A DNA stretch of 20,747 bases. It comes from a virus. The stretch covers positions 1 to 20,747 of the IMG/VR virus record IMGVR_UViG_3300028548_000287. The stretch is one strand, 5' to 3'. Below, one piece after another: positions 16,817 to 20,747 of this stretch (position 1 is the first letter of the stretch; each line of letters starts with the position of its first letter). The position numbers and the translations under genes are program-made. The notes under the pieces are model-generated. The model saw only the letters and a program-made list of their open reading frames with translations. It searched no databases and was not told the DNA's origin.

Positions 16817-17098
16817 CTATAATATTTCAGCTAATTTCATCTGGTTAATTAAAAACTTAATTACTCCAGCTTCCCCATTATGGTACGCGGCTTCATAATT
16901 AATGTTCTCTGACCCAAAGGAAGTATCATTTTCATATACAAACCTTTTTGTTAAGTCAGACAAGATACGTTGTCCGTCGTCAGTTGTAAAGACTCGATGG
17001 TAAAATTTAGCTAAGTCAGACGCATTTTGCTTGCGTATGCCAGCTTGCTTCTTAGCCAAATCAGAGTCAGCAGATTGGTTAATTTCTGACCAACTCAT
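16817..17098 (-). CDS. Bbp19-like phage protein (93 aa)
   Basis: A small helical protein located between portal and scaffold, with the core DLAKFYHRVFTTDDGQRILS and the C-terminal AAYHNGEAGVIKFLINQMKL. The 'FYRVFTTDDGQRVL...Y..G....I.FI...' layout matches what I know as the Bbp19-like family, named after the BPP-1 protein in the same position; the family has no well-established function. The ATG shares its A with the TAA of the portal gene (TAATG at 17096-17100), so it is probably translationally coupled to the portal. Its stop is 9 nt before the scaffold start. Confidence 0.85.
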   Translation of the reverse strand: MSWSEINQSADSDLAKKQAGIRKQNASDLAKFYHRVFTTDDGQRILSDLTKRFVYENDTSFGSENINYEAAYHNGEAGVIKFLINQMKLAEIL

Positions 17099-18666
17099 TA
17101 ACCTTGCACCGGAGCTTGTGAAGTTGGAAGCCCTTGTTGTGCCGCTTCAGCACCAGCTTGAATAATCTGGGCTTTCTCTGTATCAGAACGGACTAACTCG
17201 GCTGGCATACCTGTTTTACCAGCTACCCATGTACCAAAGTCTTCTAGCTTAAATCCAATCTTGGCTTGATCTGGGCCAGCATTCTGCAATACAAACTGTA
17301 CGGCTTGCTGAACGTTGATAATATCTTCACCATCTTGTGCTTTTGCCAAAGGAGATAAGAATTTAATCTCAATATCAAGACCATCTAATTGAATAGGCTG
17401 TAGTAATCCACGACGAGTCAAAATGTAAACAACACGCTTGAGGATAGGCACAAGAACTTCTGTCTGTAATCGCCCAAAGGCAGAACCAATACGCTTAGCT
17501 AGTTCTCTTGAGTCAATAGCAATCTCAGTAGCAGAGCGAACAGGGCCGGCAGGATCACGCAGATCGTTAAACAAAGCACGTTTGATAGAATTTTGTAGCT
17601 CATTCATCTCAAATTGCGCTAATTGCAAGTTAGTGCCAGTGTCTAAACGCTGTATAGACGGATTAGACGAGTTGTTAGAACCAACTGGAATAACAACGCC
17701 CGGACTTATAACTATATTATAGGGGTTAGTTACACCATCATCGGTTGCAGTATACATACCAGACAAGTCAATAGCGGCTTTCTGCAATACAAATTCTTTA
17801 ACTTTGTTTAGTGATCGAACATCAGGCAATGCTTGAACAGCAGGGCCACGACCACGAATCTCACCAGACACTTTAGAGTAACGACCAGTTACCCAAGGGC
17901 TTGATTTACCAAAGTCTTGCGTCCAGCTAATTCGATCTTCTTTAGTTACCCACACACAACCGTAGTAAGTCTTAGATTTAGGCATGTAAACAACGCCCTC
18001 ACTAATCTCTACATCAGTATCAGGTTGATTCTCTATCATGCTCTTAATGCTTTCAGAAGGTTTAAACCCTTTCCACATTCTTTTTAGGTTGCGAGCCTTA
18101 ACGGTAAATCTGCGCCAATGAGTTTCAATAGAACCATACGGCCCTTCCTCAAACGCAATGCCTTTCTGCGGAATAGCATTAAAGATAATTGGCATATCAT
18201 TGCTATCATCTTCATCAATTCTTAATGTACCTGTGCCAATCAATAAATCTAAGGCGTGCTCAAAGAATTGTGTGCCAAAGTTAGATCGGTTAATGTAATC
18301 AAAAACAATGGTTGCTTGCTGTTCTAGGTTAGCTCTAATCTCTTCTTCTGATACATCATAGTCACCAGACTTTAGCGCATTAAGAACACTAACAGAGGGA
18401 GCAAAAGTAGCCCAGTTAGCCCAGATAGGAGCAATGTTTTCTTGTAGCTTACTTGCTCCTTGTTGGATAGCTTCAATAGCAGTAGAGTCAAATATCCTGT
18501 CCATCTTCTTTTGACCAGTAGAAAAGTCATCAAATAGATTTCTGTTAGGCAGGAAATACTCATAGCAATCATCAAGAAGATCATGCCATAAAGCCATTTT
18601 TTGAAATGCTTTCTGCTCTCTTGATTTTAAATCTTGTAACGAACCTAATTCTTTTGGTAGTTTCAT
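17098..18666 (-). CDS. Portal protein / head-tail connector (T7 gp8-type), 522 aa
   Basis: Forms the twelve-fold portal through which DNA enters and leaves the head. Length fits the T7 gp8 class (536 aa). Recognisable parts are the N-terminal helix with ALWHDLLDDCYEYFLPNRNL, AIQQGASKLQENIAPIWANW at about residues 65-85, GTGTLRIDEDD, and the strongly conserved clip-to-stem segment RSATEIAIDSRELAKRIGSA followed by FGRLQTEVLVPILKRVVYIL at about 380-425. The last 60 residues are Gln/Ala-rich and end in LPTSQAPVQG. The start is 8 nt after the Gly-rich gene; its AGGT ribosome site is weak for an essential protein. The stop overlaps the Bbp19-like gene start by one base. Confidence 0.94.
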   Translation of the reverse strand: MKLPKELGSLQDLKSREQKAFQKMALWHDLLDDCYEYFLPNRNLFDDFSTGQKKMDRIFDSTAIEAIQQGASKLQENIAPIWANWATFAPSVSVLNALKSGDYDVSEEEIRANLEQQATIVFDYINRSNFGTQFFEHALDLLIGTGTLRIDEDDSNDMPIIFNAIPQKGIAFEEGPYGSIETHWRRFTVKARNLKRMWKGFKPSESIKSMIENQPDTDVEISEGVVYMPKSKTYYGCVWVTKEDRISWTQDFGKSSPWVTGRYSKVSGEIRGRGPAVQALPDVRSLNKVKEFVLQKAAIDLSGMYTATDDGVTNPYNIVISPGVVIPVGSNNSSNPSIQRLDTGTNLQLAQFEMNELQNSIKRALFNDLRDPAGPVRSATEIAIDSRELAKRIGSAFGRLQTEVLVPILKRVVYILTRRGLLQPIQLDGLDIEIKFLSPLAKAQDGEDIINVQQAVQFVLQNAGPDQAKIGFKLEDFGTWVAGKTGMPAELVRSDTEKAQIIQAGAEAAQQGLPTSQAPVQG

Positions 18667-18674
18667 GTTTTTAC

Positions 18675-18980
18675 CTATCTTGTTTTAGTAGTGCCGGGCA
18701 TAGGTGCGTTAGGAGTGCCGCCACCGCCACTTCCACTTGAACCAGATGAACCTCCACGACTACCGCCATACCCTCCACCTACCATACTTCTTCCTCTTAC
18801 TCCTCCAGACTTAGATGAACCGCCTTTAGCTAATAATGAAGATGTACCGCCACCTTTTCCTCTAGCGGCGGCCTTTAACCTACGCTCCATTTCTTCGGTT
18901 TCTTCATCAAGCATTCGAGACTGACGTTCTACACCAGCCATTTCTTGTGCAGTTGGTTCAGGAGCTTTAGGTCGTTTCAT
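18675..18980 (-). CDS. Gly/Ser-rich small protein between terminase and portal (101 aa)
   Basis: Residues 1-40 are charged and helical (MKRPKAPEPTAQEMAGVERQ, then EETEEMERRLKAAARGKGG). Residues about 44-95 are almost wholly Gly, Ser and Arg (GGYGGSRGGSSGSSGSGGGG) and probably disordered. The ATG overlaps the TGA of the preceding gene as ATGA, and the portal follows 8 nt after its stop, so it belongs to the head operon. Small proteins with a charged N-terminus and an 'RRxxRGxGG.SSLL' type segment are common beside portals and terminases in phages; none has a function I can name with confidence. Minor virion or assembly role is a guess. The opposite-strand Pro-rich frame here is an artefact of the Gly codons. 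Confidence 0.82.
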   Translation of the reverse strand: MKRPKAPEPTAQEMAGVERQSRMLDEETEEMERRLKAAARGKGGGTSSLLAKGGSSKSGGVRGRSMVGGGYGGSRGGSSGSSGSGGGGTPNAPMPGTTKTR

Positions 18981-19327
18981 AATTTCCTCAAATGTTTTAA
19001 TAGTTGGTATGGAGTTAAGATAAAAGGATTGTTAATTCCTAATATTTGCTTAGTATGGCCTACACAAGTATTTAGCATAAATAACGAGCGACGACACTGT
19101 TTAGGAATATAGCTTTTTATTACAAATATGTCGTCGATTATACTCTTTTCGTCTTTAACCGTAAACAAATCAAACCCTTTTGCACTTTTTCCGTACACAA
19201 TGTAGTCGTTTGGTGTAGGTTTTATTAAATAACAGTGCCTAATTTCCTTTTTTAAGAAAAAAGACCACCACCTACCACCATCATCTTCAAAAACAACATA
19301 AACTTTAGAGGGTATTTTAGAAGACAT
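18977..19327 (-). CDS. Small protein with His...Asn-x-Cys pattern, possible permuted papain-fold protein (116 aa)
   Basis: The protein from the ATG at 19325-19327 begins MSSKIPSKVYVVFEDDGGRW. Key segments are KKEIRHCYLI (His31), a strand-rich middle (DYIVYGKS, FDLFTVKD, IFVIKSYI), then SLFMLNTCVGHTKQILGINN (Cys88, His91) and PFILTPYQLLKHL. A histidine early and a cysteine opening a helix late is the order seen in permuted NlpC/P60 and LRAT-type papain-fold proteins; the assignment is my inference. I recall the 'RHCxxI...TCVxxxKxxLGI...LTPxQLxxHL' layout in other phages and gene transfer agents next to terminase and portal. The frame can be extended to a GTG at 19364-19366, but that start has no good ribosome site; I prefer the ATG, inside the terminase 3' end (11-nt overlap). 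Confidence 0.85.
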   Translation of the reverse strand: MSSKIPSKVYVVFEDDGGRWWSFFLKKEIRHCYLIKPTPNDYIVYGKSAKGFDLFTVKDEKSIIDDIFVIKSYIPKQCRRSLFMLNTCVGHTKQILGINNPFILTPYQLLKHLRKL

Positions 19328-20747
19328 TAACCTTAACCTTTGCTGTGTGAATCTTATCAAATCCACCAGCGCGAGCTAATGCAGAGCGACCTTCTCCTTC
19401 TCCCTGTAAAGCGTATTCAAGGGCTTCTACTGGGTGCGAATATTCATTCTTATCTGGTTCATCAGTGTATCTTTCTCCAGATGTTTGTACACGACGATAA
19501 CAGAAGCCACCCTGTAGACCTTTACGGATCATAGAGGCTTTAGGCAAGACAATAAATCTAGGCTTACCGTCCATACACATTTCTTTCATAGGGACTTCTA
19601 AAGCGGCCCTACGCTTCATAGGATCATTAGACACTGTAGGGTGACAAGGTATTCCTGCGGCCCTCATAATCTGAAATGGAGTCTCAGAGTTAGATTGGTT
19701 CTTGTTGTTACCAGAGGGATCGCCCCAACCTTTAAACGTGTGGTCAGGGTACATCTCTTCAATGTATCTTTTTAAACTAGGAGCAAAGTCAACAGCACCA
19801 GAGTCAGTTAATACTACTTCGTCAAAGCATACCCATCGACCAATCGAGGTACGTTGTAGGAAGGCACACGCAGGGGTTCGTCCAAAGTCAAAACCAAGTA
19901 CAATAGGAGTATCTTTAGAAGGCTTAAATTCCAAGTGTTGACAGTGTACTGAATCAGTATACATAGGATGGACAGGTTTACCGTTAGACACAAATCCGTA
20001 TTCATTAGCTAGATTAACCTTAATCCAATCATCAGTCTTTCCTTGTAAGCCCCTACGGTAATAACCTTCAGGTAGATTAAAAAGATTCTCTGCTTTGTCG
20101 TTTACTAACCAGTTCTCACCGTCTTTAATAACACCACCAGCTTGACGATAGAAAGCCCAGTCTTCAGGACGCTCTATCTCTGCTAGTTTAAAATACCAAT
20201 GGTCTTCATCAGGGGCATTACTGTCGCCTATCATTCCATGATGTGTAGGACGCGCACCTTCCTTGTTAGACGGGTATCGACCATGACGTAAATCAAGCAT
20301 ATCAAGGACAGCTTTAGAATGCTCTTTAGTCTCGTTTAACCATACCCATGTAGTCTGGATACCACGCGCTTTCTTAACGTGTTCAGGACGGTCAAAGGCA
20401 ATGAATACAATGTCACACTCTACCCTAGTACCATCTTCTAGCTTAAAGCGGATAAAATGCGTAGGAGGCTCTTTGTTACCTTGTTTGAAGTCACCTAATT
20501 CTCCATGTATCTCTAGCCAATCCTTAATCGTAGTAGAGAACAGTTCGGAATAAGTATTACGTGCGGCAATGATACGAGATAGGCGTACACCATAGTTCTT
20601 ATGTTGCTTGTCTTGGACAGGCTCTTGCTCACACATCAAATCGAATAATTTTAGAATACACTGAACAGTCTTGCCAGAACCTAGAGGCCCCATTATAAAA
20701 GAGTTTCTTTCTCGGCAATCGTTAAAATCTTGAAGAACTTGGCCTTG
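19317..20747 (-). CDS. terL: Terminase large subunit, ATPase and nuclease (5' end cut by right edge)
   Basis: The DNA-packaging motor. 476 residues are visible and the frame stays open to the right edge, where it reads QGQVLQDFNDCRERNSFIM, so the N-terminus is missing; the Met at 20691-20693 is internal. Walker A is GPLGSGKT (visible residues 20-27). The Walker B region with the catalytic Glu is VWLNE (135-139), preceded by DIVFIAFDRPEHVKKARG, which fits the coupling region. The nuclease domain has VLGFDFGRTPACAF (283-296) and GWGDPSGNN (340-348) with metal-binding Asp, and the C-terminus contains YSHPVEALEYAL, the late SH-x-x-EALEY motif. It precedes the portal, unlike T7 where the terminase lies at the far end of the late region. 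No small terminase subunit is in the window. Confidence 0.95.
   Translation of the reverse strand, partial: QGQVLQDFNDCRERNSFIMGPLGSGKTVQCILKLFDLMCEQEPVQDKQHKNYGVRLSRIIAARNTYSELFSTTIKDWLEIHGELGDFKQGNKEPPTHFIRFKLEDGTRVECDIVFIAFDRPEHVKKARGIQTTWVWLNETKEHSKAVLDMLDLRHGRYPSNKEGARPTHHGMIGDSNAPDEDHWYFKLAEIERPEDWAFYRQAGGVIKDGENWLVNDKAENLFNLPEGYYRRGLQGKTDDWIKVNLANEYGFVSNGKPVHPMYTDSVHCQHLEFKPSKDTPIVLGFDFGRTPACAFLQRTSIGRWVCFDEVVLTDSGAVDFAPSLKRYIEEMYPDHTFKGWGDPSGNNKNQSNSETPFQIMRAAGIPCHPTVSNDPMKRRAALEVPMKEMCMDGKPRFIVLPKASMIRKGLQGGFCYRRVQTSGERYTDEPDKNEYSHPVEALEYALQGEGEGRSALARAGGFDKIHTAKVKVNVF

Follow-up and report, generated by a model that had tools for sequence, protein, structure and literature searches.

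A 116-residue protein family encoded just upstream of the phage portal gene has an invariant His/Cys pair and a likely permuted papain fold

Introduction

The closest described counterparts of the protein considered here are the permuted NlpC/P60 enzymes, whose characterized members have acyl, lipid, or protein substrates (PMC12994826; PMC10318531). The active site of one of these, the YiiX-like enzyme BcPPNE, is composed of His49, Glu64, Cys154, and Tyr127, wherein the third residue lies 15 positions after the His (PMC3142127). Loss of the third residue is tolerated by known permuted enzymes, and the corresponding position can be non-polar in the DeSI/PPPDE (DUF862) peptidases (PMC3142127). 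The LRAT and PLAAT (HRASLS) proteins and the picornavirus 2A proteins (H-box/NC) are likewise permuted papain-like, compact, and built with the His before the Cys.

With regard to gene position, the family can be compared with two proteins of phage T7, gp6.7 and gp7.3, whose genes lie upstream of the portal gene on the T7 map. Both are small; they are packaged close to the portal and tail and are ejected at infection (PMC11784390). They are not known as enzymes, and we liken them to the family by size and gene place.

Here we describe a family represented by a 116-residue protein encoded in a viral DNA of 20,747 nucleotides (IMG/VR record IMGVR_UViG_3300028548_000287), the whole of which is called the window below. 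HMM searches of Pfam, PHROGs, NCBIfam, and PADLOC yielded no family that describes this protein, PDB sequences gave no credible match to its family, and we found no paper on it in the open-licence literature. The family is therefore new to the databases searched; it is of a known broad kind and has a variant active site.

Results

The gene and its neighbors in the window

The minus strand of positions 18977-19327 translates from an ATG start into 116 amino acids and a stop, and the encoded protein is small and basic (pI 9.6). This gene and its neighbors are as follows.

19317-20693, minus strand: terminase large subunit (terL), open reading frame taken from the first in-window ATG and supported by tblastn
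18977-19327, minus strand: CDS of the 116-residue family protein, ATG start and TGA stop, supported by homologues and dN/dS
18675-18980, minus strand: 101-residue Gly-rich protein between the 116-residue gene and the portal gene, supported by the ATGA overlap and by relatives with small proteins at this place
17098-18666, minus strand: portal or head-to-tail connecting protein (PF12236, E 8e-80; synteny)
16817-17098, minus strand: Bbp19-like phage protein (PF25181)

Because the 116-residue CDS overlaps the 3′ end of terL by 11 nucleotides and its stop overlaps the start of the next gene as ATGA, the terL, 116-residue, and 101-residue genes look translationally coupled. The in-window terminase reading frame opens with a Walker A-like motif (GPLGSGKT; window:20660-20693), and for this reason the true terL start probably lies past the window end, such that the gene is cut by the end of the record.

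Comparison of the 116-residue gene with five close relatives gave dN/dS values of 0.10-0.20, and by this measure the CDS is a real gene under purifying selection. A chance reading frame is excluded by the same values together with 445 encoded relatives recovered in a first scan of viral contigs and 50 Vibrio phage records that carry the family.

Elsewhere in the window, a 125-residue protein (window:11200-11577, minus strand) that adjoins a large tail-region protein matches PHROGs families of short tail fibers or adhesins.

Distribution of the family

The first and later scans of viral contigs, including marine contigs, together yielded hundreds of family members. The 50 records, which were retrieved by using tblastn against annotated phages, are all Vibrio phages, and their full-length matches share 23-30% identity with the window protein. 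In four Vibrio phage contexts, the gene lies between terL (or the gene that replaces terL) and the portal gene and is annotated as a hypothetical protein. This is the only annotation that the family has received, yet it is portal-adjacent in hundreds of phage contigs.

The family also came up in alphaproteobacterial genomes when GTDB contigs were scanned. By using a profile search with no preset motifs, we found it in 67 of 385 alphaproteobacterial species genomes, and thus about one in six of the species sampled has a family gene. Many of the 215 unique members collected are only 20-30% identical to the window protein.

The constant neighbor is the portal gene

The sequence-only reading had placed the gene beside the terminase gene in a packaging operon. 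This description fits the window, but across the family the constant neighbor is the portal gene, which follows the family gene in the same orientation at 250 of the 252 loci where a portal was found. Of 30 short genome loci, 25 have it within 1.5 kb, and it is downstream of the family gene in all ten larger genome regions checked. The gene that precedes the family gene in Alphaproteobacteria encodes a conserved protein of about 120-180 residues and is not terL; terL-like genes occur further on, at 13 kb in genome G600 and at about 20 kb in genome G340. Because the alphaproteobacterial terminase is located elsewhere, "packaging operon" is too broad a term for the gene's place, which is better given as immediately before the portal gene, and this separation of 13-20 kb rules out the terminase as a constant partner. 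Distances among family members track those among the portal proteins (r 0.88; permuted maximum 0.16), and they track those of terL almost as well (r 0.83).

Four related podophages (HTVC010P, Hodr, MEP301, and BcepC6B) gave no match to the family profile in the head region. In HTVC010P, Hodr, and BcepC6B, terL and the portal gene are separated by one or two small genes, and MEP301 has a row of other genes there. Because these four phages do without it there, the family gene is optional and is no universal head part; where present, it stays with the portal gene. Small proteins are found at the place of the 101-residue neighbor in relatives, including those without the family gene.

In MEP301, a Methylophilales phage, the slot directly after terL is occupied by a gene annotated as an acetyltransferase (L357:6099-6599, minus strand).

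Conserved residues

As had been read from the sequence, translation of the CDS places His31 in KKEIRHCYLI and Cys88 in LNTCVGHTKQILGI. The positions considered below are the following.

19235-19237, minus strand: codon of His31, the putative catalytic His, which begins strand 31-37 of the model and is present in 215 of 215 members
19190-19192, minus strand: Gly46, 15 residues after His31, at the column where most members of the other clades have the third polar residue
19070-19072, minus strand: Asn86, conserved in the window clade only (94 of 215)
19064-19066, minus strand: codon of Cys88, first residue of helix 88-96 in the model, putative nucleophile, 215 of 215 members
19055-19057, minus strand: His91, roughly one turn of the helix past Cys88, conserved only in sequences that have Asn86
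19001-19015, minus strand: nearly invariant TPYQL motif, with which the last helix begins (T in 202, P in 202, Q in 195, and L in 213 of 215)

Loss of His31 or Cys88 in most homologues would have spoken against the sequence-only reading, and no such loss was seen: these are the sole columns conserved at 100% among the 215 unique members, a count that omits two fragmentary hits (L377 and L378). This invariance is more than a product of the searches, because the His was outside the search patterns of one viral scan and the divergent members were recovered by a whole-profile search without a preset motif. The next most conserved features are Leu109, Val89, Gly97, Lys93, and the TPxQL motif. The motif around Cys88 reads [T/S]CV[G/E] in the family, and Cys32, which adjoins His31, is Val in 40 of the 215 sequences.

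Asn86 had been named as a further residue to check for invariance, and it is not invariant: its presence in 94 sequences, all of a single clade, rules it out as a universal catalytic residue. His91 is found in 83 of these 94 sequences and is absent from all 121 others. Outside the window clade, the residue at column 46 is Asp in 60, Asn in 31, Tyr in 9, Glu in 9, His in 6, and Gln in 3 of 121 sequences, so that Asp, Asn, Glu, His, or Gln occupies it in 109 of them, often as WxxxDP. Within the window clade, Gly is present at this column in 63 of 94 sequences. The YiiX-like sequences that we collected have an acidic third residue likewise 15 positions after the His, a residue that is absent from the window protein (Gly46). 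Judging from the alignment, loss of the residue at this position and gain of Asn86 and His91 could be one remodeling event; note that the correlation reflects a single split and is not independent evidence of function. The conserved columns of the 215 members include neither a Tyr before the Cys that would correspond to the fourth catalytic residue of NlpC/P60 enzymes nor a GD motif in strand 1.

Predicted fold

AlphaFold2 models of the window protein (pLDDT 80.8, pTM 0.75) and of an alphaproteobacterial member (pLDDT 91.1, pTM 0.85) have a common order of elements, wherein a strand, a short helix, a strand opened by the His, and two more strands are followed by a helix, a strand, a helix opened by the Cys, and a last helix that begins at TPxQL. 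In the window model, His31 is the first residue of strand E31-37 and Cys88 the first of helix H88-96. When this model was compared with 997 PDB chains, the best match was 3kw0, the permuted NlpC/P60 enzyme BcPPNE, with an rmsd of 3.7 over 102 of 116 residues and a Z score of 5.9, which is below 8 and therefore in the range where a common arrangement can give a match. Aichivirus 2A (Z 4.1), DeSI-1 (Z 4.0), and PLAAT3 (Z 3.3), all of which are permuted papain-like, are also among its top ten.

The best matches of the alphaproteobacterial model were triphosphate tunnel enzymes, which aligned with half of its chain at a Z score of 4.9. Aichivirus 2A (Z 3.8) is the sole permuted papain-like protein among the matches listed for this model, and 3kw0 is not among them, the comparison having covered only the 1000 candidates supplied by Foldseek. 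Foldseek searches of the PDB yielded no significant match for either model.

The permuted papain layout suggested from the sequence alone is thus upheld in part. In its favor are the order of His before Cys, the invariance of both, the placement of these residues at strand and helix starts in two models, and the best match of the window model; against it, the model with the higher scores best matches a different fold over half its length. On these models, we regard a permuted papain fold as quite likely, although unproven.

Assignment to the LRAT or YiiX type, which had also been suggested, failed. Peptidase_C92 (PF05708) gave no hmmscan match and an hhalign probability under 1%, and hhalign comparison of the family with freshly collected C92 sequences did no better than control families (portal, terL, and capsid). 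LRAT (PF04970) had no HMM match in 81 members, and the family has no NCEHF motif; the LRAT matches collected were too sparse to serve as a profile. Because there is no match in Pfam, PHROGs, or NCBIfam and no profile-profile similarity to Peptidase_C92, the protein cannot be called a member of the LRAT or YiiX group, and membership in a named family is not established.

Nevertheless, the layouts can be compared. The YaeF/YiiX-like proteins (Peptidase_C92; BcPPNE, 3kw0) and the family have in common the order of His, a polar residue at +15 (present in the majority of family members), and Cys, as well as a Cys that opens a helix and a TP or SP motif after this helix. They differ in that the family protein has 116 residues, compared to the 166 positions of the C92 profile, with no extra segment before the Cys, no GD motif or conserved Tyr, Gly as the third residue in the window protein, and no detectable sequence similarity. 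Relative to the LRAT, PLAAT, and 2A proteins, the family has NTCVGH or TCVE and no NCEHF-type motif, and it resides in a phage head module. The DeSI/PPPDE peptidases are eukaryotic isopeptidases to which no sequence link was found.

Discussion

Proposed function

We are inclined to view the 116-residue protein as a head-module enzyme, an active cysteine hydrolase or transferase of the permuted papain type that is perhaps carried in the virion. Catalysis as such is probable given the residue conservation and the models, and a role linked to the virion or portal is put forward more tentatively. The protein would be a minimal single-domain cysteine enzyme with a circularly permuted papain (NlpC/P60-like) layout, wherein His31 at the start of a central strand and Cys88 at a helix N terminus would be placed to form a catalytic dyad. 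The carbonyl attacked by Cys88 would be that of an amide, ester, or thioester, with His31 as the general base and, in most relatives, assistance from Asp, Asn, or Glu at +15 from the His, a residue lost in most of the window clade. As a head-module protein made with the portal, it would be carried in, or act on, the particle around the portal or core, and may aid either genome delivery, by acting on peptide or acyl bonds of the host envelope, or head maturation. The option that the protein is an inactive structural relative is disfavored because the His/Cys dyad is invariant.

An enzyme of this kind might act on lipids or acyl groups, as a phospholipase or acyltransferase with an LRAT-, YiiX-, or Tox-Act1-like action that modifies a membrane in genome delivery or late infection. 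Characterized permuted NlpC/P60 enzymes target fatty-acyl linkages (PMC12994826; PMC3142127), and the structural matches include a member of the LRAT family, PLAAT3 (Z 3.3). However, the resemblance to LRAT/YiiX-type families is at the fold level only, with no link in sequence, and we consider this specific activity unlikely.

Similarly improbable is a peptidoglycan peptidase or amidase, either virion-carried for wall opening at entry or serving as an accessory lysin. NlpC/P60 and CHAP domains of the papain-like type in phages are mostly wall hydrolases (PMC10318531), and a small, basic protein (pI 9.6) would suit such a role, but the permuted members of known activity act mostly on lipid or acyl groups or on protein (PMC12994826, PMC10318531), and the 116 residues include no second, wall-binding domain. 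Moreover, the elements that carry the gene already have other enzymes of this kind: Vibrio phage 284E43-1 has genes annotated as an M15A peptidase and a lytic transglycosylase, and the alphaproteobacterial element of G600 encodes a cell-wall hydrolase of its own (Hydrolase_2) along with a GTA-type holin. Because of these other lysis genes, the protein is probably not a lysis enzyme, and an endolysin role was rejected.

The fixed place of the gene on the portal side in 250 of 252 loci and its co-divergence with the portal would also be compatible with a head-maturation protease that processes the portal, the scaffold, or the adjacent small Gly/Pro-rich protein. Yet no family gene occurs in the head region of relatives whose portal and capsid are of the same types, the small protein at the neighbor's place occurs without it as well, and the capsid protein of the window is short (278 residues) with no obvious long pro-region, all of which leaves this alternative doubtful. 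The least likely alternative is a small, connector-associated non-enzyme in which the invariant His and Cys serve structure or metal binding: most sequences of the window clade have lost the third residue, the family does not keep the NlpC/P60 Tyr, and the best match of the alphaproteobacterial model is outside the papain fold, but exactly one His and one Cys that are absolute in 215 sequences and stand at strand and helix starts are typical of an active site, and a change of Cys32 to Val in 40 of 215 is a poor fit to a Cys-rich metal site.

For the favored reading, a cysteine enzyme of the head module, the invariant pair provides single-residue mutants (H31A and C88A) with which its part in assembling heads, delivering the genome, or modifying the host is directly testable in isolated Vibrio phages. 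A more speculative proposal, and an unlikely one when taken as a whole, is that this unnamed and widespread family of minimal permuted papain-fold proteins is co-inherited with the podophage portal, that one marine clade rebuilt the active site by losing the +15 residue and gaining Asn86 and His91 together, and that the particles carry the enzyme, which acts on the host envelope while the genome is delivered, both in phages and in alphaproteobacterial elements that resemble gene-transfer agents.

Alphaproteobacterial elements

Many Alphaproteobacteria have one podovirus-like module per genome (L350:3388-14000 together with L380:1-7174, both of G600; also L343-L352 and L170-L182). The module begins with a divergent HTH/S24-type regulator, a conserved "RPCEPxDI" protein, the 116-residue family gene, a small gene, the portal gene, and Bbp19, and continues with scaffold, capsid, tail, terL, Hydrolase_2, and GTA_holin_3TM genes. 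In G600, isocitrate dehydrogenase follows the module, whose GC content is close to that of the host. It is possibly an element akin to gene-transfer agents, or else just a prophage. Apparent alphaproteobacterial copies outside phage genes were rejected as an artefact of long spurious reading frames in GC-rich DNA.

The "RPCEPxDI" family (A6; L350:4467-4901 and L171:5447-5881), for which Pfam and PHROG searches gave no match, is present in 48 of the 385 alphaproteobacterial genomes, 45 of which also carry the 116-residue family, typically as the next gene. The regulator upstream in G600 (L350:3388-4293, minus strand) keeps the N-terminal DNA-binding half found in other genomes, and a phosphoribosyltransferase domain replaces the S24 peptidase half of the others. 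In another genome (G428), the portal is split over two adjacent reading frames (L301:2142-3359), which suggests a decaying or frameshifted copy.
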